From Chitinophagaceae bacterium (lineage in GTDB: Bacteria > Bacteroidota > Bacteroidia > Chitinophagales > Chitinophagaceae), in NCBI GenBank assembly GCA_022841365.1, contig JALHRP010000041.1:1-35291 (forward strand): a stretch of DNA of 35,291 nucleotides. Reading direction: 5' to 3'. Under the pieces are notes generated by a model. It did not search any database. It was given only the letters and a program-made list of their open reading frames with translations, and was not told the DNA's origin. Position numbers and translations under genes: made by a program. The stretch's first letter is position 1, and each line of letters begins with the position of its first letter. Below are positions 16,987 to 35,291 of the stretch, piece after piece.

Positions 16987-17496
16987 TTACTTACTTTTTT
17001 TTCTTTTTGCATCCAAAGCAGCAGCGGCTTCCGCTTCGATTTGGTCGTATGTTTTCTTGGTAGAAACAACTGTATTCTCAACCGTTTGTTGATTGTTGAT
17101 AGGTGTTTCAGCAGCTTTTACACCGCCCAATTCTTTATTATGAGCAAATACCGTTTCAAGTTCTTGCAAAGCAGCTTCTAAAGTTTCAAAGCCTTTGCTT
17201 TGTAGCAACTCGCTTTGAGCTGTCAAAGTAGCAGCCATTTCAATAACCTTTGCTTCGTTTGTTTCTGCCAATAAAGCAGACTGATTAAGTTGCTCGTTTA
17301 GCTTTTCAATTTCAGCTGTTGCCGTTGCGTTTAGTTCGCTTACATTTGCAAACTTTTTTTGCAATTCGTCAAATTTTGATTGTAGTTCTTTGGTAGAATT
17401 TTGCACATTTTGCAAATCAGCTTCCGCTTCCGTTGCCGTTGATGCTCCAAAAATCTTTTCAAAGAAGCTCAATTTTTTTTCATTCTCAATTGACAT
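16987..17496 (-). CDS. Putative internal scaffold product, 169 aa
   Basis: An in-frame ATG (MSIENEKKLSFFEKIFG) opens exactly where the protease domain ends and the coiled-coil scaffold begins. An A-rich stretch (CAAACAACAGATATT) precedes it, like other starts in this genome. A separate scaffold made from inside the protease gene is well known in lambda and relatives. Here it is predicted from the layout only. Confidence 0.5.
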   Translation of the reverse strand: MSIENEKKLSFFEKIFGASTATEAEADLQNVQNSTKELQSKFDELQKKFANVSELNATATAEIEKLNEQLNQSALLAETNEAKVIEMAATLTAQSELLQSKGFETLEAALQELETVFAHNKELGGVKAAETPINNQQTVENTVVSTKKTYDQIEAEAAAALDAKRKKSK

Positions 17497-18435
17497 AATA
17501 TCTGTTGTTTGGTTTGTATTACTATTTTGTTTCTTTGCTTTTTTGCCTAAAATCCTAGCCCGTTCAATTGCATATTCAAGGTTTTTAATCCCATCTATTG
17601 CGCCTATTTTCATAGCATCAGTAGCAGAATATAATTTGCCCTTGAATACGTGTCCATCGTCTTGTAATTGTGGACGTGATTTTTTAACCGACTTAATAAA
17701 GGAATCTGTTAGGCTGCTTAGTAACTGCTTCATTGGCTCTAAATTTCCGTCCAATGCTTCGTTTACTTCTATGTTCTTTTCAGTGCTTTGTGGTGCGTAT
17801 ATTTCAAGGTAATTAACGCCCATTGATTCCCAAAAAGCCCTATCATCTGCGATTGTGATGTATGTTCCAATACTGCCCCAATAACTTTGAGTTTCGGCTG
17901 CGTATAATTCATTAACACCCTCAAAAGCATAAACAGCAGCGGAAGCCATACCTTCAAAGAATCCAACAGTAGGCGTTTTAGTAGATGCAATTACCCTGCT
18001 TAGGCTTTCGTTTCCGTCCGCTTGACCGCCTGGGGAATTGATATAAAAAACAATTCCATCAACATTCTCGTTTTGGTCTAATGCTTTTACAGTAGCTTCT
18101 AAATCCCTTGTACCACTCACAAAGCCGTCCGACATAGTACAATAAGAATCTCGCATCATTGCACCCATAACAGGCACAACCGCAATAGAACCCTTTTCAA
18201 TCTTTGTAAAGTCGGCTGCAAATTTACCGTAGGCAATATTCGTAGAAGCGTTGTAGAATTGTACTTGGATAGGATTTTCTTTTGAGGAAACAATACCATC
18301 AAAAGCCCCACTTTGACGCATAGAATCGTATCGCATTACCAAGGCTTGTGCCTGATGCTTTTCAATAAAAAGGGGCAAATGTGCCATACTTTTTATAACT
18401 GAAACGATTGCGGATTGTGTTGTTTTATCACTCAT
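16987..18435 (-). CDS. S49-type prohead protease with internal scaffold, 482 aa
   Basis: Likely cleaves the scaffold and capsid arms in the prohead, as lambda C protein does. The start MSDKTTQS is preferred over an ATG six codons upstream. The protease part shows VDGIVFYINSPGGQADGNES (about 125-144, oxyanion NSPGG) and EGMASAAVYAF, where Ser165 is the expected nucleophile of the SppA/S49 fold, followed by GSIG at 187-190. After residue 313 the sequence changes to a long Glu/Leu-rich coiled coil ending in a Lys-rich tail (LDAKRKKSK), the scaffold part. Its own in-frame start at base 17496 would give a free scaffold of 169 aa, the lambda C/Nu3 arrangement. It stands directly upstream of the capsid gene. 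Confidence 0.85.
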   Translation of the reverse strand: MSDKTTQSAIVSVIKSMAHLPLFIEKHQAQALVMRYDSMRQSGAFDGIVSSKENPIQVQFYNASTNIAYGKFAADFTKIEKGSIAVVPVMGAMMRDSYCTMSDGFVSGTRDLEATVKALDQNENVDGIVFYINSPGGQADGNESLSRVIASTKTPTVGFFEGMASAAVYAFEGVNELYAAETQSYWGSIGTYITIADDRAFWESMGVNYLEIYAPQSTEKNIEVNEALDGNLEPMKQLLSSLTDSFIKSVKKSRPQLQDDGHVFKGKLYSATDAMKIGAIDGIKNLEYAIERARILGKKAKKQNSNTNQTTDIMSIENEKKLSFFEKIFGASTATEAEADLQNVQNSTKELQSKFDELQKKFANVSELNATATAEIEKLNEQLNQSALLAETNEAKVIEMAATLTAQSELLQSKGFETLEAALQELETVFAHNKELGGVKAAETPINNQQTVENTVVSTKKTYDQIEAEAAAALDAKRKKSK

Positions 18436-18490
18436 ACATGTAAATATAAACACATCGTAGTATTAAAACACAATTTTATATCTTAGTGCG

Positions 18491-18565: not shown

Positions 18566-21454
18566 ATGGCAGAGGAAATTTTATTGCTTACGGTAAAACT
18601 GCAAGCGGATTCTAAGAATGCAAAGACTATAAACGACCTTATTAAAGCTAATAAAGAACTAGCAAAGGTTATTAGAGATGCTCCACGTGAAGGTGCGGCT
18701 GGGTATGCTGAATTATCGGATACTTTGGACGAAGCTAAAAAGCAATTTGCAGCTAACAAGGTTGAAATTGATAAATTCAATAAGGAATTAAAGACAGGCG
18801 AAAAGCAAGTCGAAGCAAAGTCTAGTTCTTTGATTGGGCTTTCAAAAGATTTAAAGAATCTTGAAAAGGAATATAAGCTGCTAAGTGCAGAAGAACGCAA
18901 TAGTGCAAAGGGTCGTTTTTTAGAAAAAAGTATTTTCCAAACTAGACAGGAACTATTAAAAGCTGAAAAGAAATTAGGGGATTTTCGTAGGCAAGTAGGT
19001 AATTACGGGGTAATAGTCGCAGGGTTAAGCCCTCAATTGTCTGCTTTAGGGTCTAGTATTGGAACGGTGGTAAGTGGTTTTACTGCTTTGAATGCAGCCT
19101 TTAAAAGTTCAGGCGCAGCGGCAAAGGCTTTTTTATTGGCATTAGGACCAGTAACCGTTGCAATTGGTGCGTTATCTTTTGCATTGTCAAAATTTGAAAG
19201 TGTAAGGGAATCGTTCCAAAGAGGATTCGCAGGGTTTGGCGCAGCGTTTAATGTGATTATAGAACGAGTTGGACAGGCTGCATTTTCTTTTGAAAAACTT
19301 TTATCTTTAGACTTCAAAGGCTTTGCTGCTGATTTTGGAGGTGCGTTTAGTGGTTTGACTGATGAAATAAAAAACGATTTCAACGCAGCAACAGAAGCAG
19401 TTAGGGGGTTGCAAGAATTAGAAGATGATGAAATTGCTAGGATAGTAGAATTAGCAAGGCTTGAGCGTGATATTTCAATTGCTAAACGTGAAGCAGAGGA
19501 AGCAAGCGCAACCAATAAAGAAGAATCTATACGTCAAATTCAAAGGGCTATTGATTTAACAAACCAACAATTTGCAATAGAAATAGAATTTGCAAGACGT
19601 AGAGCTGAAATATTAGCAGAACAAGTAAGAACTAAGGGTGCAACGGCAAGCGATGACGAACGTAGGGTGGTAGAAGAAGCACGGGCAAATCAATTGCGTT
19701 TAGAAGCTGCACAAGAAAACGAAATTAAGGGATTAACTCGGAGGTTGAATCAACTTAGAAAAGGCGTTAAGGACGAACAAACTGCATTACAAGTTTTGCA
19801 ACAACAACAAACCCTGCTTACTGAAACTTTGAAACTGCAAATTTTGGCAGGGGAGGATGTAACGGCAACCTTGGACGAATTGAAAGCGGTTACTTTGGAT
19901 TTGATTGCAGTAGATGAAACTTACAAGGCTTTAACTGATAGTATTGGCGTTAGTTTGACGTTTACAAATGGCAGTTTACAACAGTATAACAAAGAACTTG
20001 AAACGCAAAACGCCAAACTTGAAACGCTTGTAATTGGTTCTAAGGAGTACGAAGAAACGCAAAACTTAATTCTGCAAATAGAAGCTAAACGAAGCGTTGC
20101 AATTGGGGATGTTACAAGGTCTATTGAGGAATTAAACAAAGTACAGGAATCAAGTAAGAACGCTTTAGAAGACAGTTTAAAGGAATTGCAACTACGCACC
20201 GAAGCGCAAAAGGCTATAGAAGCAAGTGCAGGGTTAGAAGGTGCAGCAGAAAAACGCATTCAAATAGAGAAACAACTAGACGAAGATTTAAAGCAAATTA
20301 GAGTTGATAGGATACTAGATGAACAGGCAGCACTTGAAACCGAATTAAATTTGGTTGAAACTGACTTACAAAAAGAACTAGAACTTTACAAGGATAACGA
20401 GCTTAAAAAGTTAGAATTGTCTTTGATTGCACAAGGCAAACAAGACGAAATAAGACAAAGAAGTTTAGAGTTAGAAGCAGAATACCAACAAATTAGCTTA
20501 GAGCAGTTTAACAAAGCAGAGGAACAAAGAACTGAAGATACCAAAAAAGCAGAATCACAAAGGAATGAAATCCGTGATATGGCTATCCAAGGCACGGTAT
20601 CCGCTGCCAAAAAAGTAACTGAATTACTAGGTGTTTTACAAAAGCAAGCAACCGAAAAAGAATCCGCTGAAATAAACGCCCGTGAAGAAAAGCAGTTAAA
20701 GGAAGCTGAACTATTAGGTAAAACAGAAGAGCAAAAACAAGCGATTAGGGATAAGTTCGCAGCCGAACGGGAAGCATTGGAACGCAAAGCAGCAGCAGAA
20801 CGAAAAGCTATTGCAATAGGTGAAGCGGTTATTGATATAGCAGGTGCGGTTTTAAATGCCTTGAATAGTCCAGCTCCTGCAAATTTTGGTTTAGCTATTA
20901 CGGCAGGTGTTTTAGGAGCTTTGCAATTGGCTATCATTGCGGCTACTAATTTCGCAAATGGTGGTTTGGTTACGCCTGTTAAACTTGGGAACGGTAAAAT
21001 AGTTAATTCGCCAAATATCCCACAAATGCAAAACGGGGATAATATCTTGGCAACTGTTAAAACAGGTGAGGTAATTCTAAACGAAAAGCAACAGGCGGCA
21101 CTTGGTGGATATGAAACATTTAAGCGTATCAAAGTGCCTGGTTTCTCAAATGGTGGTAAAATTACAAAACCTTTAGAAAGTGCGTTCCCGTTTGCAAGTG
21201 GTGGGATAGTTCCGACCTTTAGACGCAGTCCAGTTGTTGCCCGTGCTTTTGCTAATGGTGGGGCTGTTACGGCTCAAAATTCGCAGGAACAAATACAGCA
21301 GCAAAGCGATGCTTTTATTGAAAGAATTGCACAAGCAGTACGAATTGGGGCGGCTATTGGGTCAAAAGAAGGAACAGAAAACGCTGATATAACAGGTCAA
21401 ATTGCTAAACAAAATCAAAGAAATGCAAGAAGGACAACTAATGAAGGATTGTAA
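18566..21454 (+). CDS. Tail tape measure protein, 962 aa
   Basis: Sets tail length and is ejected with the DNA. It has a long coiled-coil N-terminal part (KELAKVIRDAPREG, ELKTGEKQVEAKSS), a hydrophobic Ala/Gly-rich region at about 145-225 with candidate membrane segments (LGPVTVAIGALSFALSKF), a very long helical middle rich in Glu/Lys/Gln, another hydrophobic stretch near 750-790, and a C-terminal end with the phrases typical of tape measures: NGGLVTP, NGDNILATVKTGEVILN, and repeated FANGG or FASGG. At about 1.5 angstrom per residue the tail would be near 145 nm. It is on the plus strand, opposite to the capsid and tail chaperone genes. Confidence 0.88.
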   Translation: MAEEILLLTVKLQADSKNAKTINDLIKANKELAKVIRDAPREGAAGYAELSDTLDEAKKQFAANKVEIDKFNKELKTGEKQVEAKSSSLIGLSKDLKNLEKEYKLLSAEERNSAKGRFLEKSIFQTRQELLKAEKKLGDFRRQVGNYGVIVAGLSPQLSALGSSIGTVVSGFTALNAAFKSSGAAAKAFLLALGPVTVAIGALSFALSKFESVRESFQRGFAGFGAAFNVIIERVGQAAFSFEKLLSLDFKGFAADFGGAFSGLTDEIKNDFNAATEAVRGLQELEDDEIARIVELARLERDISIAKREAEEASATNKEESIRQIQRAIDLTNQQFAIEIEFARRRAEILAEQVRTKGATASDDERRVVEEARANQLRLEAAQENEIKGLTRRLNQLRKGVKDEQTALQVLQQQQTLLTETLKLQILAGEDVTATLDELKAVTLDLIAVDETYKALTDSIGVSLTFTNGSLQQYNKELETQNAKLETLVIGSKEYEETQNLILQIEAKRSVAIGDVTRSIEELNKVQESSKNALEDSLKELQLRTEAQKAIEASAGLEGAAEKRIQIEKQLDEDLKQIRVDRILDEQAALETELNLVETDLQKELELYKDNELKKLELSLIAQGKQDEIRQRSLELEAEYQQISLEQFNKAEEQRTEDTKKAESQRNEIRDMAIQGTVSAAKKVTELLGVLQKQATEKESAEINAREEKQLKEAELLGKTEEQKQAIRDKFAAEREALERKAAAERKAIAIGEAVIDIAGAVLNALNSPAPANFGLAITAGVLGALQLAIIAATNFANGGLVTPVKLGNGKIVNSPNIPQMQNGDNILATVKTGEVILNEKQQAALGGYETFKRIKVPGFSNGGKITKPLESAFPFASGGIVPTFRRSPVVARAFANGGAVTAQNSQEQIQQQSDAFIERIAQAVRIGAAIGSKEGTENADITGQIAKQNQRNARRTTNEGL
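21428..21434 (+). promoter_or_regulatory. Shine-Dalgarno-like site
   Basis: AGAAGGA lies six bases before the ATG at 21441, inside the end of the tape-measure gene. It is one of the few purine-rich ribosome sites in this genome and favours this start over an ATG 18 bases upstream. Confidence 0.5.
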
Positions 21455-29917: not shown

Positions 29918-30045
29918 GGTTTGTCTTTAATTGGCATAAAATGAAAATATTTATCTATCCAAGCAGGGCAAACATTATTAAAAGATACGAGCGTCGGCAT
30001 TGGTCTGAAAATGTATTTTTTAGGTTTAATTGTCTTCTTTGTCAT
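29914..30045 (-). CDS. Very small basic protein, 43 aa
   Basis: Starts MTKKTIKPKKYIFRPMP and is highly basic in its first third, with a single Cys (FNNVCPAWIDKYF) and an end KPIK-like (PIKDKP). Its ATG overlaps the preceding stop as TGATG, and its TGA overlaps the chaperone ATG as ATGA, so the frame fills the only gap between the 30045 and 29917 genes. Small proteins at this spot could be connector helpers. No family is recognisable. Confidence 0.6.
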   Translation of the reverse strand: MTKKTIKPKKYIFRPMPTLVSFNNVCPAWIDKYFHFMPIKDKP

Positions 30046-30422
30046 CAAATATTTGGTCTAAGGTCGTGAATAGTTTTTGGCTCAATAACGGTTTCTATTT
30101 GCGATTCTTTGCCCCCGTTTAGAAGTATTTTGTACTGCTCAAGGTGCAACAAAGCCCGTTCTATTTCTGCCCTCATTCTCGCAGTTTTTACGCAACTTGA
30201 ACAACTATCAGAAACGCTTTTCATAAGGATTTCTGGAATAGATAAATTAAAGTTGTCGGACTTTGGAAAGCCAGCCCCAAGATGTTTAACCTCTTTATAA
30301 AAACCTGCCAATCCTTGCCGTACTGCCTTGTTGTCTAAATATGTTTGAACGGGAAACAAACTATTTAACTTTTGCAATACCGCTTGTTTTCTTCTTTGGT
30401 TGTATTCGTCCACTATCGACAT
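30045..30422 (-). CDS. Hypothetical helical protein with CxxC, 125 aa
   Basis: The N-terminus (MSIVDEYNQRRKQAVLQ) is basic and helical; CSSC sits around residues 74-77 and a long helix follows (RMRAEIERALLHLEQY). Start codon overlaps the upstream gene by 62 bases. A disulfide or metal site at CSSC is possible. It lies between terminase and tail chaperones in the packaging-tail row, suggesting a virion or connector role (inference). Confidence 0.65.
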   Translation of the reverse strand: MSIVDEYNQRRKQAVLQKLNSLFPVQTYLDNKAVRQGLAGFYKEVKHLGAGFPKSDNFNLSIPEILMKSVSDSCSSCVKTARMRAEIERALLHLEQYKILLNGGKESQIETVIEPKTIHDLRPNI

Positions 30423-30960
30423 CAGTTTGATAGATTAGGGTGATTAATCGTTTTATGTCCTTCGCCAACAAATCTACATTTTCAGATTGTAGATAGGCTG
30501 CTTCTAATTCTATGCCTTCAAATTCGCTTTCAAATTCTGATTTAATGAATTGGTCTTTGGTTTGGTGTACCGTGTTGGTTGCTTCGCCAATGACCTGCAA
30601 ATGTATTGCGTTGGCTAGTCGTGCTTTTCGGTAAGACTTCACAATGTCTATCTTTTCGGAAAAGGCATAAGCAGTTGAACCGTCTTTGTCCTTTGTTTTT
30701 TTGAGCAGAACTATTACTAAGTTGTTAGCCTTAGCATTATCCAAATGCTGTTTTTCTATTCCGCAATTCTTTACAGCAGGGTCACCAAACACCAAATAGC
30801 CTTCGTAAGGTAACAATTTTATATCGGACGGGGTCAAAACTTTAGCGCCATTTATTTTGAAATACTTATTTTTCGATACCGTCTTTGTTTCGGCTTCCTC
30901 AATTTGTTGTGCTTTTGGTGCAATGTTACCCTTTTTTCTGTTATCAGTTTCTACTTTCAT
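30361..30960 (-). CDS. Hypothetical protein of the packaging row, 199 aa
   Basis: Starts MKVETDNRKKGNIAPKAQQ and is basic and Lys-rich at both ends (SKNKYFKING; QPKKKTSGIAKVK). The middle is an alpha/beta stretch (LPYEGYLVFGDPAVKN) and the C-terminal helix is acidic (FESEFEGIELEAAYLQ). Starts with TAATG on the terminase stop. No recognised motif. The position right after the large terminase suggests a packaging or head function, but nothing in the sequence proves it. Confidence 0.65.
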   Translation of the reverse strand: MKVETDNRKKGNIAPKAQQIEEAETKTVSKNKYFKINGAKVLTPSDIKLLPYEGYLVFGDPAVKNCGIEKQHLDNAKANNLVIVLLKKTKDKDGSTAYAFSEKIDIVKSYRKARLANAIHLQVIGEATNTVHQTKDQFIKSEFESEFEGIELEAAYLQSENVDLLAKDIKRLITLIYQTDVDSGRIQPKKKTSGIAKVK

Positions 30961-32417
30961 TATAATTTATTTCGGTTTTGATATTCACTTTTAAATACTG
31001 TAACTGCCATGTAACGGCTTCCATCAACTGCGTGTCCACGTGCTTGATAGGTACGCTTTACTTTTATCCCATCTTCTAAGAACGTATCGGATGCGGTGGT
31101 CTTTAGTATCGTCCCGTCCGTATCGGTCTTTGTCTTTTCAAAGTCTGCAATGTGATAGCCACACAAAGGAGATATTTGTATTTTGATATTCGCTCCCCCG
31201 TGATTGCTATTCTCTTTTGATACCTTTACATATCCGTTAAAAATATCGTTCAAAAAGTCCAAAGAAGTTGCAACCGATGGATTAACTACCGTCCTATCTT
31301 GAACGTCAAAATTTGCCCCTTTTAGCTTCGTTTTAATTTGCGCCACAAAATCCGTTGTATCGTGGTCTTTCTTGGTGTTTCCAGAATAATCGCAAATGAT
31401 AACTATTCGATTTGTTGCATAGCCTTTTTGCTTTAGGTACTCAATTATCTTTTGTGTTACCTCTTTTACAGAATGGTCAGGCAAACAAAACTCATTTACC
31501 AAGTTCCAAAAATATTCATTCGTTCCACGTTCAAACCCTCCAAACTGCCATAATCCCACAGTATGATGTGGCAGCCTGTTAAAATCCCACGACAAATATA
31601 CTAAAGCTTCTTTATTAAATTGTACTTTATCGCTCACGTGCTTTATTCTATCAAACGCCTTTAGTGCCATGTTGGACTGCTTAGCGGTCATTATAAGTCC
31701 TAGTCCTGTGATTTGATAGCGTTCGTAAGAATACCGTTTTTGGTCTTCAAACATTTCAAGTATATTCTGCGGCACGTAAGGATTCATTAAGTACGTGCTG
31801 TGCATTATCGTTGTGTTTCTCCTAGTGCTTTTTACGTAGGTGTGAGAACCGTCCAACTTTTCAAAACTTTCACGGGGTGGAAACCAACGTTTAAAAATCC
31901 AATGGTTTTCATCAACTACGTGAGTATTAAAAATCAAAATTACTTGAATGTCATTTGAACCCCTCAATGAAAATATCATTTCTTCGACTTCGTTTTCCGT
32001 ACATTGGTCGGCTTCCTCAACTATCGCATCCGTGGGATTTAGTACAGATTTTGCGTTCCCTGTTTTCCCTGCATGCTCATAAAGCCCCATCGGCATAAAT
32101 GAATTACCGTTTGCCCTGCATAGAATTTGCATAGCGTGGTCTTTAAACTCAAACAAATGGTCAATTCCTATTCGCTTAGCAACACCCTTTAAAGTGTCGT
32201 ATAATGATTCCCTAACATCGCTTTGAAACTTACGAACCATTAAGCATTTAAAGTACGGCAATGTCAAACAACGGTATAGGGCAATGAAACAAGCTATATC
32301 TGATTTGGTGCTATTCCTAGAACCGTATAAAATTTTGGTAGTGTTTTTGTCGTGAAGCAGCGGTATAAATTCGGGTGCAAAGTGCCACTTTTCTAACTTG
32401 ATGTTTATATCCGTCAT
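30960..32417 (-). CDS. terL: Terminase large subunit
   Basis: The motor ATPase and nuclease that fills the capsid and cuts the DNA. The ATPase part has a variant Walker A, YGSRNSTKSD at residues 31-40 (Lys38), a Walker B region DAIVEEADQ (130-138, hydrophobic strand followed by Glu134/Glu135) and a coupling motif FNTHV at 163-167. The nuclease part has the RNase H-like acids: SWDFN (Asp278), ICDYSG (Asp343) and HAVDGSRYM (Asp465). Length 485 aa is normal for Terminase_3-type proteins. The downstream gene starts on its stop; the small terminase candidate overlaps it by an ATGA upstream. Confidence 0.92.
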   Translation of the reverse strand: MTDINIKLEKWHFAPEFIPLLHDKNTTKILYGSRNSTKSDIACFIALYRCLTLPYFKCLMVRKFQSDVRESLYDTLKGVAKRIGIDHLFEFKDHAMQILCRANGNSFMPMGLYEHAGKTGNAKSVLNPTDAIVEEADQCTENEVEEMIFSLRGSNDIQVILIFNTHVVDENHWIFKRWFPPRESFEKLDGSHTYVKSTRRNTTIMHSTYLMNPYVPQNILEMFEDQKRYSYERYQITGLGLIMTAKQSNMALKAFDRIKHVSDKVQFNKEALVYLSWDFNRLPHHTVGLWQFGGFERGTNEYFWNLVNEFCLPDHSVKEVTQKIIEYLKQKGYATNRIVIICDYSGNTKKDHDTTDFVAQIKTKLKGANFDVQDRTVVNPSVATSLDFLNDIFNGYVKVSKENSNHGGANIKIQISPLCGYHIADFEKTKTDTDGTILKTTASDTFLEDGIKVKRTYQARGHAVDGSRYMAVTVFKSEYQNRNKL

Positions 32418-32977
32418 TGTTCATCTTTGACCTGTGATTGTTCCCAGCGTTTCTTTGCTTCTTCGTCAGGTTCTGGTAATTCAATATTTACATCTTGGTT
32501 GGCGTTCTTATTATCGTTTTCAGTCTTAGCTTTCCAATTGTGTTTTGTCATTAAAAGAAGGTTTGCTACCCCTGCGTTTACTGCCCCATTGGCAGCATCG
32601 TTATAGACGTTATTTTCGCAAGTTTCCGAAATAGTTTGAAGCATTCGGATTATAGTATTATTTTCCTTATACTTTATTGCCATATCACTAAAGAAGTCCA
32701 TATTTAAAACATGGAACTTTTGAAGTATAGTTGTCTTGGTGTGGTGTCTTCTTTTCCTTTTTTCAACCGTCTTTTCTGAAAATTCGTAATCCCCTTTTTC
32801 GCCTTCCTTAGTTTTTACGCTTACCTCTATTTCGTAATCTTCATTTAAGAACTCTATCATTTCAAAAAGGGTTCTTTCGACAAGTTCAGCCGTCCAATAG
32901 GATTCCTTTAAAGAGTTTTTCATTTTCTCTCTAATAGCTTCCTTGGTTTCTTCCGTATGTTTTTCGCCTTTTTTCAT
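32414..32977 (-). CDS. Probable terminase small subunit, 187 aa
   Basis: Binds the packaging site and recruits the large subunit, if the call is right. The N-terminus is basic (MKKGEKHTEETKEAIREK), the middle helical (AELVERTLFEMIEFL, then HHTKTTILQKFHVLN), and AANGAVNAGVANLLLMTKHNWKAKTE around residues 127-152 is reminiscent of the 'a.....a.f.Lk...gWkdk' region of small terminases. An acidic tail (DVNIELPEPDEEAKKR) ends the protein. It is directly upstream of terL with ATGA overlap and behind a palindromic operator-like site. Confidence 0.72.
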   Translation of the reverse strand: MKKGEKHTEETKEAIREKMKNSLKESYWTAELVERTLFEMIEFLNEDYEIEVSVKTKEGEKGDYEFSEKTVEKRKRRHHTKTTILQKFHVLNMDFFSDMAIKYKENNTIIRMLQTISETCENNVYNDAANGAVNAGVANLLLMTKHNWKAKTENDNKNANQDVNIELPEPDEEAKKRWEQSQVKDEQ

Positions 32978-32986
32978 TGAAATTTA

Positions 32987-33004
32987 TAACTAAAACTTTA
33001 GTTA
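32987..33004. promoter_or_regulatory. 18-bp palindrome upstream of the terminase genes
   Basis: TAACTAAA and TTTAGTTA form a perfect 8-bp inverted repeat with a 2-base spacer. It lies ten bases before the start of the small terminase gene. A related half-site (AAAAGTTACT) lies about 25 bases further upstream. A repressor site or an mRNA hairpin in the leader are both possible. No TAnnTTTG promoter was found here. Confidence 0.45.
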
Positions 33005-33027
33005 CTTATCGTTTTCCCGTGTTTATA

Positions 33028-33237
33028 CTAAAAAGTTACTCCATTTGAATCAAAAATCTGCGCAAGTTGTACATCTCCATTCATAAGGTAGTAAATAGGT
33101 TTGTTTGTTGCTGAATTAACTTCTGTGATTATAGATGTTATTGCAGTTGCCACAATCAAATCCCCTACCTTAATCGTAGTGCGCACACCATTTGTTCCAT
33201 CGTCAAATCCTTGTGGTATTGATATTATTGTTGCCAT
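33028..33237 (-). CDS. Small beta-rich protein, 69 aa
   Basis: Starts MATIISIPQGFDDGTNGVR and contains short hydrophobic strands (TTIKVGDLIVATAITSIIT). It has no signal peptide. It may be a small structural or decoration protein, because it resembles the 8682 and 13106 products in style, but it lies outside the virion block, between tiny genes and the terminase. Function unknown. Confidence 0.68.
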   Translation of the reverse strand: MATIISIPQGFDDGTNGVRTTIKVGDLIVATAITSIITEVNSATNKPIYYLMNGDVQLAQIFDSNGVTF

Positions 33238-33239
33238 GT

Positions 33240-33344
33240 TTAGTTTTCAGATAATTTATGTCCTACCAAAAGACAAAAGCCACGTCTATAATATTGGCTC
33301 ATTATGTAAAATGGTTCTTGCTGTATTTGGAATATTAAGTGCAT
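33240..33344 (-). CDS. Very small protein, 34 aa
   Basis: Starts MHLIFQIQQEPFYIMSQYY and ends with a basic-hydrophobic part (RRGFCLLVGHKLSEN). The ATG lies one base after the lipoprotein stop and its TAA is two bases before the next start, so it fits exactly in the gap. Coupled arrangement supports a gene; at this length no family can be named. Confidence 0.55.
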   Translation of the reverse strand: MHLIFQIQQEPFYIMSQYYRRGFCLLVGHKLSEN

Positions 33345-33345
33345 T

Positions 33346-33705
33346 TCATTTCTCATAAGTTACTTTTTTACCTTTCAGGTCTATCAAATCAAAAGTGTTA
33401 GTAAATACGTACATTCTGAACTGATTGTACCTGTTTGCGTATATCTTGCAATATGCAATGTAATTACCTTTGAAATCAATTACAATCATTTTTTCCATGC
33501 CATGATTGAAAACGACATAATCGCTGACGTATTCGCAATTCGAGAAGCTAAAGCTGCACGGATTGCCTATTGTCGTATCATTTGGATAATAAACAGCATC
33601 ACCAAGTTTTCTTTGAATGTCGTTCTTTATAATTTCGCTTTTACTGCACGAAACAAACAAAAGTAAGATTGTAAAAAATACGATTAATGATTTAGGTATT
33701 GCCAT
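33346..33705 (-). CDS. Lipoprotein, possible superinfection exclusion protein, 119 aa
   Basis: An N-terminal signal peptide (MAIPKSLIVFFTILLLFVS) ends with the lipobox LFVS-C, so Cys20 should be acylated and the mature protein of 100 residues anchored to a membrane. The segment after it (SKSEIIKND) is charged, as in surface-exposed Bacteroidota lipoproteins. The mature part has two Cys (NPCSFSFSNCEY) and beta strands (KMIVIDFKGNYIAYC). The start two codons upstream is a TTG, so MAIPKS is chosen. Phage lipoproteins of this size often block a second infection (T5 Llp, for example), an inference here; an outer spanin is less likely, because it is far from the endolysin. Confidence 0.72.
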   Translation of the reverse strand: MAIPKSLIVFFTILLLFVSCSKSEIIKNDIQRKLGDAVYYPNDTTIGNPCSFSFSNCEYVSDYVVFNHGMEKMIVIDFKGNYIAYCKIYANRYNQFRMYVFTNTFDLIDLKGKKVTYEK

Positions 33706-33707
33706 CT

Positions 33708-33742
33708 TCAAAAATTAAGGGGCAGCATTTGCCTACTGCCCC
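33708..33742 (-). terminator. Terminator before the lipoprotein gene
   Basis: On the minus strand GGGGCAG pairs with CTGCCCC (7 bp, 10-base loop), followed by TTAATTTTT. It closes the row of tiny genes and lies only about 14 bases from the lipoprotein start, so lipoprotein transcription depends on readthrough or an unseen promoter. Confidence 0.75.
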
Positions 33743-33762
33743 AATTCCTAATTTAAACTATT

Positions 33763-33954
33763 CTATGATTCTTTCAATTCAGTTACTTTTGCCGTTCCCC
33801 AATAATCCGCCGTTTCAATACTCACATCCCTACCTTCGTTATCTTCTACGGGTTGCAGCCTTGTGAGTTGCTTTTGTAGTTCGTCTTTCAAATCTTCTTG
33901 GCTGATGTGCTTATCCGTTTGGACTGTTATTTCTATTTTGAATGTTTGTTTCAT
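33763..33954 (-). CDS. Hypothetical small protein, 63 aa
   Basis: Starts MKQTFKIEITVQTDKHISQ: two strands and an acidic helix (EDLKDELQKQLTRLQ), then another strand pair (VSIETADYWGTAKVTEL). It looks like a small ferredoxin-like or DNA-mimic fold, but nothing decides. Last gene before the terminator of the small-gene row. Confidence 0.72.
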   Translation of the reverse strand: MKQTFKIEITVQTDKHISQEDLKDELQKQLTRLQPVEDNEGRDVSIETADYWGTAKVTELKES

Positions 33955-33975
33955 GGCAGTTCTTTTATGCCTAAC

Positions 33976-34155
33976 TTACAAAAGTGGCTTCTTTTTTTGG
34001 ATAATCGCTTCGCCTTGGTGGGCTGTTCCGCAAACAATACCGCCACTTTTGAAGTTATTATTTTGCCTTTGCACTTCAAAAATCTTTTCCATGTATTTAG
34101 AAAGTACAAAACTATTGTATTCTGCTTCCGTGTTTATTTTTATTGGTTCGCTCAT
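33976..34155 (-). CDS. Hypothetical small protein, 59 aa
   Basis: Starts MSEPIKINTEAEYNSFVLSK, helical in the first half and Gln/Asn-rich (EVQRQNNNFKSGG), ending in a basic tail (IIQKKKPLL). The start overlaps the preceding stop as TAATG. Function unknown. The gene is short and close to its neighbours, like the rest of this row of coupled genes. Confidence 0.65.
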   Translation of the reverse strand: MSEPIKINTEAEYNSFVLSKYMEKIFEVQRQNNNFKSGGIVCGTAHQGEAIIQKKKPLL

Positions 34156-34316
34156 TATTCCGTTATTTCGTAAACGTCCTCAAAACACGGTTGTTTCAGT
34201 TCTTTCAAATCCGATTCAACCAACAAAATAGCCCACGCTTTCTTTTGTGTCGCTGCTTTGGTGGTTAAATGGTTTGCTTTGTTGCCCCATTCTTTGATAG
34301 TTCGTGGTTTTAGCAT
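34155..34316 (-). CDS. Hypothetical small protein, 53 aa
   Basis: Starts MLKPRTIKEWGNKANHL; the first half is basic and helical, the second acidic (VESDLKELKQPCFEDV). TAATG link to the next gene and a one-base gap upstream. The pattern is compatible with a small DNA- or protein-binding factor, but no family is visible. Confidence 0.65.
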   Translation of the reverse strand: MLKPRTIKEWGNKANHLTTKAATQKKAWAILLVESDLKELKQPCFEDVYEITE

Positions 34317-34317
34317 T

Positions 34318-34422
34318 TTATTCCGCTTTTACAAATGTAGTATTCGACTTAGAACCGTCATAGGTAATTGTCATTGAATACCAAACGTTATTTTTAGGCT
34401 TTGTTGGTGTTTTCTTTGGCAT
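34318..34422 (-). CDS. Very small basic protein, 34 aa
   Basis: Starts MPKKTPTKPKNNVWYSM: a Lys/Pro-rich arm followed by a strand (MTITYDGSKSNTTF). It is joined to the upstream gene by TAATG and to the downstream by a one-base gap, so it is likely translated. Nothing more can be said at this size. Confidence 0.6.
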   Translation of the reverse strand: MPKKTPTKPKNNVWYSMTITYDGSKSNTTFVKAE

Positions 34423-34631
34423 TATCCTACATTTTCACCTGCTGACAATAAAATAAACTCATTCTTTAGAAATTCGATATAACCCAAAACACGGGTTTCC
34501 AAATCAATAATATCTTGGATTGGTTTTATTGCTTTAGCTTCTTGAACTTTGAGCAAAAACTTTTCCCATTCGTCTTTTGCGTTTAGTGTATCTGCGCAGG
34601 TGTATTCTACGCCTTCTTTCCAATCTGCCAT
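34422..34631 (-). CDS. Hypothetical acidic protein, 69 aa
   Basis: Starts MADWKEGVEYTCADTLNAK and is acidic and helical (DEWEKFLLKVQEAKAI, IDLETRVLGYIEFLKNEF). TAATG links on both sides. No motif is recognised. Such coupled tiny genes near the likely transcription start often act on the host early in infection (inference). Confidence 0.7.
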   Translation of the reverse strand: MADWKEGVEYTCADTLNAKDEWEKFLLKVQEAKAIKPIQDIIDLETRVLGYIEFLKNEFILLSAGENVG

Positions 34632-34828
34632 TATTTTGATAGCTTTTTGCGCTTTGATTCTAATTTCATTTGAGATATAGGCACTATTTTATCCGCTTCG
34701 TTTGTTGGCGTAAATTTACCTTGATAAAGTTCTGCAAAACGCTTAAGGTTACTATCAAACTTTTTGCTTATTTCATATTCGGTGCGCTTAGCAGCCCAAA
34801 TACAATCTTTTTTGCTTGAATTTTCCAT
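34631..34828 (-). CDS. Hypothetical basic protein, 65 aa
   Basis: Starts MENSSKKDCIWAAKRTEY and ends with a very basic stretch (QMKLESKRKKLSK). Helical in the first half. Nine bases separate it from the small Cys-rich gene upstream. Function unknown. Confidence 0.7.
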   Translation of the reverse strand: MENSSKKDCIWAAKRTEYEISKKFDSNLKRFAELYQGKFTPTNEADKIVPISQMKLESKRKKLSK

Positions 34829-34837
34829 ATTTCAATT

Positions 34838-35005
34838 TTAAATACCCCAAATGCTACAAACCAAGTCTTTCAAAGTTATTTTTGATAAATACCTTTCTGA
34901 TTGTGGATTGTTGCATTTATGGCGTTTTTGTTTACCTATTCTAAAGGATTCCGCAAATTTACAATGCTTGCACTTTGCTGATGTTGTTATTGTAATTACT
35001 GCCAT
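34838..35005 (-). CDS. Small zinc-finger-like protein, 55 aa
   Basis: Starts MAVITITTSAKCKHCKF. CKHC gives a first cysteine pair; HKCNN provides a His and a Cys about 16 residues later, and a fifth Cys lies near the end (VCSIW), so a small metal-binding finger is plausible. The C-terminal part is basic (ERYLSKITLKD). It is the first protein gene after the tRNA-like genes and follows a hairpin by about 16 bases. Confidence 0.65.
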   Translation of the reverse strand: MAVITITTSAKCKHCKFAESFRIGKQKRHKCNNPQSERYLSKITLKDLVCSIWGI

Positions 35006-35020
35006 CTTTCAATTTTAAAC

Positions 35021-35046
35021 CCGTGCGGCACATGACAACCGCACGG
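35021..35046. terminator. Perfect hairpin after the tRNA-like genes
   Basis: CCGTGCGG pairs with CCGCACGG (8 bp, 10-base loop). The T-run on the minus strand is poor (GTTTAAAATT), so on the leftward transcript it may mark the end of tRNA-like processing or attenuate rather than terminate strongly. Confidence 0.55.
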
Positions 35047-35069
35047 ATGACCATTATTAACTAAAACAA

Positions 35070-35085
35070 TTTAAAACGAGTGCAA
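35070..35085. repeat. 16-bp direct repeat, copy 1
   Basis: TTTAAAACGAGTGCAA occurs here and at 35215-35230. Each copy covers the 3' end of one tRNA-like gene (minus strand) plus its trailer, so the two genes look like tandem units. Confidence 0.85.
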
Positions 35086-35213
35086 TTAAAAGGAATCGAA
35101 CCTTTGCCACTATTGCGAATAGTTACACATTTTCACCATTACCATTTTCGCATTTGATAATCTGCGTGTATCAATGGCGGTCAGCCCTTTGCTCTGCCCT
35201 GAGCTATAACTGC
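35081..35213 (-). tRNA. tRNA-like gene with oversized insertion
   Basis: The acceptor arms GCAGTTA and TAATTGC pair with one G-T and leave discriminator A; a D arm (GCTC, 6-base loop, GAGC) and a good T arm (AAAGG, TTCGATT, CCTTT) are present. Between them lie 85 bases instead of about 23. One possible anticodon arm follows the D arm (loop CTGACCG, anticodon GAC, mismatched stem) and leaves a variable region of over 60 bases; another sits next to the T arm (ACTA, loop TTCGCAA, TAGT, anticodon CGC) and leaves a 60-base insertion upstream. Neither is fully regular. No CCA is encoded. Function as a normal tRNA is doubtful; a tRNA-derived RNA is the cautious call. Confidence 0.6.
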
Positions 35214-35214
35214 A

Positions 35215-35230
35215 TTTAAAACGAGTGCAA
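35215..35230. repeat. 16-bp direct repeat, copy 2
   Basis: Second copy of TTTAAAACGAGTGCAA, 145 bases from the first, again covering the 3' end of a tRNA-like gene and the trailer. Confidence 0.85.
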
Positions 35231-35284
35231 AAGGCAGGACTCGAACCTGCGACCCAAAGCTCTAACCAACTGAACTACATTTGC
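35226..35284 (-). tRNA. tRNA-like gene lacking the anticodon arm
   Basis: Acceptor arms GCAAATG and CTTTTGC pair with one T-T mismatch and leave discriminator A. The D arm is textbook (GTTC, AGTTGGTTA, GAGC) with A14, G18, G19 and A21; the T arm is perfect (GCAGG, TTCGAGT, CCTGC) with TTC and A58. Between them only eight bases remain (TTTGGGTC), of which GGGTC is a normal variable region. So about 15 bases, nearly the whole 17-base anticodon arm, are missing. It cannot decode. It might be a decoy or structural RNA, a pseudogene, or a recombination remnant. No anticodon can be given. Confidence 0.7.
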
Positions 35285-35291
35285 GCCCCTG

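Follow-up and report, generated by a model that had tools for sequence, protein, structure and literature searches.

The minus strand at the right end of the sequence studied here carries a tRNA-like element of 59 nt (element 1), which keeps the acceptor, D and T arms of a tRNA and lacks the anticodon arm. Elements of the same build recur in further phages unrelated to this one, where both acceptor strands change together and where many of the nameable neighbours are late genes; the otherwise retained fold points to a role apart from protein synthesis. As its likeliest use we tentatively propose that the element serves as a processing/leader element of phage late mRNAs, recognised by the host RNase P. 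The sequence, called the window below, is the whole 35,291-nt stretch of contig JALHRP010000041.1 from a Chitinophagaceae bacterium, whose assembly comprises 4.56 Mb in 326 contigs. Its relevant features are as follows.

35226-35284, minus strand: tRNA-like element 1 without anticodon arm, 59 nt (RF00005, 42.5 bits)
35214-35225, minus strand: 12-nt spacer CTCGTTTTAAAT between elements 1 and 2, recurring after element 2
35081-35213, minus strand: tRNA-like element 2, 133 nt (RF00005, 40.3 bits)
35021-35046, minus strand: 8-bp GC-rich hairpin without a clear U-tract, seen by eye, separating the two tRNA-like elements from the first small ORF
34838-35005, minus strand: first small downstream ORF (55 aa), a presumed gene, opening a run of small ORFs toward the terminase genes
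32414-32977, minus strand: 187-aa ORF directly 5' of TerL, putative terminase small subunit by position only
30960-32417, minus strand: terminase large subunit, TerL (phrog_3717, E 1e-31; phrog_2, E 3.3e-25)

A preliminary description of this DNA had placed at 35226-35284 a tRNA-like gene with intact D and T arms, a 7-bp acceptor with one mismatch and no anticodon arm, and had proposed a covariance search as a check. The Rfam cmscan of positions 30000-35291 bore out the description on each of these points: the tRNA model RF00005, with a gathering cut-off of 29 bits, matches element 1 end to end (model positions 1-71, 42.5 bits, E 9.4e-7), with 3 nt in place of the model's 18-nt anticodon arm. 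The acceptor GCAAATG/CTTTTGC forms 6 of 7 pairs, with T.T at pair 6; the D stem GTTC/GAGC is fully paired (4/4), U8 and A9 are present, and the T stem GCAGG/CCTGC (5/5 pairs) encloses the loop TTCGAGT, the conserved bases of both loops being retained. Instead of an anticodon stem-loop, the D and T stems are connected by an 8-nt joint, TTTGGGTC. The discriminator is A and CCA is not encoded. Having no anticodon, element 1 is excluded by its anatomy from decoding. The features by which we propose to define the arm-less class, i.e. acceptor covariation, C48 and a short joint, are represented in element 1 by the 6/7 acceptor and by a joint ending in C.

ARAGORN made no tRNA call anywhere in the window. 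The folding energy of element 1 is unremarkable (z -0.07), while the related elements of phages Danklef and K476, described below, have unusual values (z -2.33 and -2.40, respectively); the evidence for element 1 comes from the sequence model together with covariation among relatives and does not rest on stability. Past element 1 the contig continues for 7 bases only, and the upstream side lies outside the sequence.

Element 2, which the preliminary description had overlooked, has a 7/7 acceptor, a D arm and a 5/5 T stem, and 85 nt between the D and T stems replace the anticodon arm; its folding energy is likewise unremarkable (z -1.02). Both elements are followed on the 3' side by the identical 12 nt, a repetition that may be a sign of tandem duplication, and are distinguished by paired double changes, of which the acceptor has two and the T stem another two. 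To judge from their sequences, elements 1 and 2 look like tandem copies that diverged with their stems kept. The host assembly holds 44 matches to the tRNA model, these two included.

Downstream of element 1, TerL follows on the same strand at a distance of 2.8 kb, beyond the run of small ORFs. The terminator scan listed nothing at the hairpin 35021-35046, and the 187-aa ORF at 32414-32977 had no PHROG match. A tape-measure-like ORF at 18566-21454 is on the plus strand, while the head protease (16987-18453) and TerL are on the minus strand, so that the late genes are split between strands. An IMG/VR search with one protein, which reaches close relatives only, gave no relative of the window TerL. 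In the family of the host, 28 distant TerL homologues were found, with at most 32% identity; the stretches upstream of 20 of them (18 of 7 kb, two shorter) comprised 19 without a tRNA and one with an intact tRNA-Arg 5-6 kb upstream, and none of the 20 contained an arm-less element at the Rfam cut-off.

Relatives of element 1 were sought in IMG/VR with a strict pattern, in which the D and T loops were fixed and 9-19 nt were allowed between them, and at least 119 stretches were found. As most D- and T-loop bases are fixed by the pattern, their conservation is no evidence; the acceptor, base 48 and the joint lie outside it. Among the 118 listed matches with full flanks, 82 have 7/7 acceptor pairs, 17 have 6/7 and 19 have fewer, the last of which are probably not members of the class. 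All unique matches listed amount to 93 elements, 81 of which have at least 6 acceptor and at least 4 T-stem pairs. The 7-bp acceptor is perfect in 67 of the 93; in 500 trials with re-dealt 3' strands the number averaged 1.4 and never exceeded 5. Every acceptor pair occurs among the matches listed as several Watson-Crick types. Base 48, the partner of G15 in the tRNA core, is C in 90/93 of these elements and in 81/81 of those with at least 6 acceptor pairs, as in 129/131 full tRNAs; the G15-C48 core pair is therefore kept.

For the joint, a distinct consensus, CTTGGGTC, was derived from the 33 eight-nt joints among the matches listed. The first base of the joint is C in 48/81 arm-less elements listed, while the corresponding base is a purine in 121/131 full tRNAs. 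The complete IMG/VR scan found the exact consensus joint in 11 contigs, and because 9 of these were already among the strict-pattern matches listed, the list appears to hold most of what that pattern can find, which suggests that the elements are recurrent but rare. When 9-25 nt were allowed (80 of at least 120 matches used), 60 unique elements had 6 or more acceptor pairs; their joints measured 8-9 nt in 19, 20 nt in 16 and other lengths in 25.

Several elements with a 20-nt joint show by eye a short stem with a tetraloop-sized cap, e.g. CTAAG-GAAA-CTTAG in the IMG/VR contig L588; in this contig and in L576, L554, L534, L582 and L586 the place of the arm is taken by a short stem capped by 4 to 6 nt (e.g. 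GAAA or GGAA). Such elements are apparently also non-decoding. A scan for 45-75 nt between the loops gave at least 116 matches, 88 of them replaced-arm elements in which the T stem is good and 6 or more acceptor pairs form. This number counts element 2 of the window twice (L001) and includes a few composites of neighbouring or doubled tRNA pieces (L170, L137). Inserts of 62-69 nt are present in L141, L163, L132, L153, L188, L198, L216 and L158, most with an ACAGCAA- or CAGCAA-like stretch, and by sequence they look like one inserted domain.

Two further kinds of tRNA-like sequence were observed. In the Bacteroidota contigs L254, L304, L282, L311, L330, L294, L252 and L280, D and T arms are connected by AACAGACAA-like linkers and the acceptor is mostly unpaired; some of these contigs have tRNA arrays, and in others the sequences stand alone. 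In L592 (G000:C3:78900-79800), an intact tRNA is followed by repeats of about 130 bp, each with a partial tRNA (33.1 bits, model positions 6-65) whose 5' acceptor strand is missing; a run of N lies between two of the repeats.

The arm-less loci (99) fall into 63 groups by DNA similarity and 38 groups by DNA and protein similarity combined. Group members retain the arm-less state even where their acceptors differ on both strands, as in GCAGGTT/AACCTGC versus GCAGGCT/AGCCTGC or ACTGCCG/CGGCAGT versus GCTGCCG/CGGCAGC. In one head-tail gene block, L028, L029 and L088 have CCTCTCG/CGAGAGG in an element between the major head and tail protein genes, while L074 and L106 have GTCTCCC/GGGAGAC in an element placed one gene earlier. 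Directly before the arm-less element of L074, at 1866-1903 on the plus strand, there is a match to the Rfam abiF RNA (39.9 bits, cut-off 37). A nearly identical joint, TGTAGTGTC, occurs with four different paired acceptors, the flanks not being alignable throughout, and hardly any variation of the element is seen in a group which includes the Acinetobacter contig L298, where most flanks are unalignable and the joint measures 8-14 nt.

These observations bear on the reading, left open in the preliminary description, that the element is a deletion scar, i.e. an ordinary phage tRNA whose anticodon arm was deleted and which was caught before further decay. The rarity of the arm-less elements, the mismatched acceptor pair of element 1 and the share of listed joints of lengths other than 8, 9 and 20 nt would fit a scar. 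The paired changes, seen among related elements and between both copies in the window, argue against it, as do the near-invariant C48, the joint consensus with its own first base, and the peaks of joint length at 8-9 and 20 nt among the matches listed. We therefore regard a scar as improbable for the class. The argument of the preliminary description that decay would not spare everything except the decoding arm holds at this level, given the number of perfect acceptors, C48 and the both-strand acceptor changes in related phages.

As a reference set for the arm-less elements, 138 full phage tRNAs were obtained by the same procedure, the counts in both cases referring to the matches listed. CCA is encoded in 9/93 arm-less elements and in 68/138 full tRNAs (p 7e-11), and discriminator C is commoner in the former (15/93 versus 3/138, p 2e-4). 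The helix is thus kept and the marks for charging are relaxed, which would speak against charging. This bears on the idea that the element is a chargeable tRNA stub acting as an amino-acid donor outside the ribosome, in peptide or lipid modification. Synthetases that ignore the anticodon can charge minihelices, and the acceptor and elbow that such a donor would need are kept; on the other hand, acceptor sequence, discriminator and CCA are not conserved, and the class I synthetase families PF00133 and PF09334 each occur in 1/116 pooled downstream ORFs, so that we consider this role very improbable. The two sets also differ in setting, since no other ARAGORN tRNA lies within 4 kb of 54/82 arm-less and 37/108 full loci among the matches listed (p 2e-5).

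Among named phages, Polaribacter phage Danklef_1 (PMC8776804 is the paper on the Danklef phages) has a 58-nt gene with a perfect acceptor, likewise missing the arm, which is annotated 'tRNA-OTHER, Undet' and lies on the strand of TerS, 1.8 kb upstream of that gene; Danklef_2 to _5 have the same BLAST match, annotated tRNA-OTHER. Vibrio phage K476 has a 60-nt copy within a tRNA array, and six more Vibrio phage records have the same match. Lactococcus phages P335, bIL309 and TP712 each have a 61-nt copy (37.8 bits) near the end of the record, with one non-standard D-stem pair, and the bIL309 record names the laboratory strain Lactococcus lactis IL1403 as host; when two Lactococcus copies were scanned with Rfam at gathering level, only that of TP712 was reported. 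In genome_contigs there are at least 32 clean elements among at least 113 matches, and of the matches listed 33 have N between the D and T arms and 47 have fewer than 6 acceptor pairs. Clean elements occur in bacterial contigs of, e.g., Streptococcus porci, Weissella bombi and Corynebacterium flavescens, and the S. porci element is identical to that of viral contig L083. Across 395 genomes of the phylum, a pattern narrowed to joints of 4-9 nt matched element 1 of the window and nothing else; read backwards through these genomes, it had no match.

The lactococcal copies sit within about 250 bases of the phage record ends, and about 2.1 kb away from the element of Danklef_1 there is a short ORF with an integrase annotation; both would suit the idea that a host tRNA was copied to serve as a phage attachment site. 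Such a site (attP) requires no more than a portion of a tRNA gene, and yet the 5' acceptor strand of the elements varies in step with the 3' strand; an attachment site is the least credible of the explanations considered.

For many elements the nameable neighbours are late genes: terminase, portal, major head, tail and endolysin-like genes. In the CTGCCG group the element precedes an endolysin-like gene in 6/8 viral members, and in L019 and L079 it precedes a portal gene. In ORFs pooled from the downstream same strand, phrog_2 (TerL) accounted for 10/116 ORFs in the arm-less pool versus 2/116 in that of full tRNAs (p 0.03) and 3/116 in that of replaced-arm elements (p 0.08), and for 5/116 in the upstream arm-less pool, which makes the downstream excess modest. 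The downstream pools comprised 116 of 178 arm-less ORFs (near-duplicates removed by eye, Danklef_1 included), 116 of 163 for full tRNAs and 116 of 137 for replaced-arm elements (both drawn at random), and the upstream arm-less pool 116 of 167. PF03237, sought in 37 records, was matched in 20 and unmatched in 17; the 20 matched records divide into 6 with TerL on the same strand no more than 3 kb downstream, 2 with it 6.6-6.9 kb downstream, 2 with it upstream (0.8 and 3.4 kb), and 10 with it elsewhere, either distant or on the opposite strand.

Some candidate associations were rejected. An intrinsic terminator as a fixed upstream partner was seen by eye in two groups, with overall frequencies of 8/77 at arm-less elements versus 9/120 at full tRNAs; a strong upstream hairpin is not specific to the arm-less elements (z -1.32 versus -0.95 for full tRNAs); and the replaced-arm elements, with the phrog_2 count given above, do not have the same terminase association. 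A co-oriented downstream ORF is equally common at arm-less elements (39/47) and full tRNAs (49/55), the count being based on the 48/81 and 57/131 elements, respectively, with 1.5 kb on both sides, and among these on the ones flanked by ORFs on either side.

The processing/leader reading is suggested by these late-gene positions, taken together with the way in which RNase P recognises its substrates. RNase P grips the elbow and gauges the acceptor-T stack (PMC4919913), and it cleaves acceptor/T-arm hairpins and some mRNAs, that of T4 gene 32 among them (PMC11143913). We envisage a phage-encoded, non-decoding RNA element which would have lost its anticodon arm and kept the parts read by host tRNA-maturation enzymes, i.e. 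the 7-bp acceptor stacked on the T arm, the elbow of D and T loops, and G15-C48. It would be transcribed within the late mRNA, in the 5' leader or between late genes, and would fold there; cuts at or around it would be made by the RNase P of the host, with RNase Z or other 3' nucleases probably taking part. The element would thus punctuate the transcript, setting mRNA ends and stability and separating the late message from what lies upstream, and late gene expression may be affected in this way.

Several findings count against a processing element: the equal frequency of co-oriented ORFs at full tRNAs, the TerL matches in the upstream pool, the position of TerL far away or on the other strand in half of the matched records, the lack of a general terminator or upstream fold, the elements situated within tRNA arrays (K476, L013), and the CCA encoded in a few of the elements listed. 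In addition, more of the tRNA core is retained than would be required of a minimal RNase P substrate.

The main rival, which we consider rather unlikely, is a free, stable, non-decoding RNA acting as a decoy or regulator. Such an RNA would be excised and matured as tRNAs are, would occupy a tRNA-binding protein and would be immune to anticodon nucleases; its candidate targets would be the CCA-adding enzyme, PNPase, a modification enzyme, or a defence enzyme with the acceptor or elbow as its site of action. The elbow core with its C48, the frequent isolation from other tRNAs among the loci listed, and the fact that in other phage elements the arm has given way to short capped stems or to different sequence are in keeping with it. 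The rarity of encoded CCA and the variable discriminator and first base argue against it, no partner other than late genes is prominent in the pooled family counts (top 25 families), and PADLOC found no defence match in the seven neighbour proteins tested. Of the readings left open by the preliminary description, an RNA-processing signal agrees best with the positions, and a decoy or regulatory RNA is a less probable alternative.

The known tRNA mimic YrlA, a bacterial Y RNA (RF02553), has a closed acceptor, a permuted chain order and a terminal Y stem. Element 1 differs in its linear order with an open acceptor. In common with it, YrlA has D, T and acceptor arms that mimic tRNA; the 5' and 3' ends of YrlA form a separate stem, and its tRNA-like domain binds PNPase (PMC8394870), a precedent that favours a decoy. 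Identity with YrlA was rejected, the order of the arms being wrong for it; RF02553 reached 18.8 bits (E 2.7, gathering 69) at 35257-35188, and none of the scanned arm-less or replaced-arm elements, nor L479 or L480, reached its cut-off. No Ro/Rsr gene (TROVE, PF05731) was found in the host assembly, which counts against the Y RNA reading as well as against a decoy, with the phage possibly incomplete in the contig. L480 and L479 are mycobacteriophage Snenia (1480-1600) and Sinorhizobium phage phiM12 (1485-1600), in which BLAST and inspection by eye revealed permuted, Y-RNA-like, unannotated sequences in the order T arm, short loop, D arm, with acceptor strands pairing; the Snenia sequence follows a gene annotated 'RNA-binding protein' and that of phiM12 precedes a macro-domain gene.

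tmRNA is also a natural 'upper half' of tRNA, its 5' end made by RNase P, and is charged with alanine (PMC3985003). Its models are far longer (355 positions in RF01849) and contain further domains, whereas element 1 is a contiguous 59 nt; no tmRNA family was found at cut-off in the window and no tag-coding or pseudoknot domains lie between the halves, so that identity with tmRNA was rejected as well. The mRNAs cut by RNase P (T4 gene 32, polycistronic operons) share with our proposal the action of this enzyme on transcripts other than tRNA precursors; they are not described as complete tRNA cores in the passage of PMC11143913 concerned, and cleavage of the arm-less elements would be the corresponding prediction. 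The M3 RNA of phage phi80 is annotated at 60 nt and is listed as an RNase P substrate (PMC11143913); its annotation makes it a homologue of the lambda oop RNA, and it was rejected as a precedent. Nematode mitochondrial tRNAs likewise do without an arm, and in the opposite sense, since it is the D arm or the T arm, or the two together, that is absent (PMC4919913) and the anticodon is kept. Ordinary phage-encoded tRNAs share the match to the Rfam tRNA model, the elbow, the acceptor and the phage location; the arm-less elements differ from them in lacking the anticodon arm, in rarely encoding CCA and in lying more often without tRNAs nearby. The open-access literature searched held no description of an anticodon-arm-less, stand-alone, linear tRNA gene in phages.

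Forms with the arm removed and with the arm replaced stand side by side in the window. We venture, more guardedly than for the processing role itself, the possible generalisation that phages have repeatedly made the tRNA into a modular non-decoding chassis, in which acceptor, elbow and core are fixed and the arm is removed, capped short or swapped, and which would act in late mRNAs as a processing or regulatory module.

Annotation overlooks arm-less elements, as ARAGORN did in the window, or labels them undetermined, as in Danklef_1. The usefulness of a tRNA core without an anticodon arm is already demonstrated by tmRNA and YrlA. Phage tRNA genes are usually explained by codon usage or by the replacement of cut host tRNAs; a conserved, non-decoding tRNA core would show that some phage genes of tRNA type serve another purpose.
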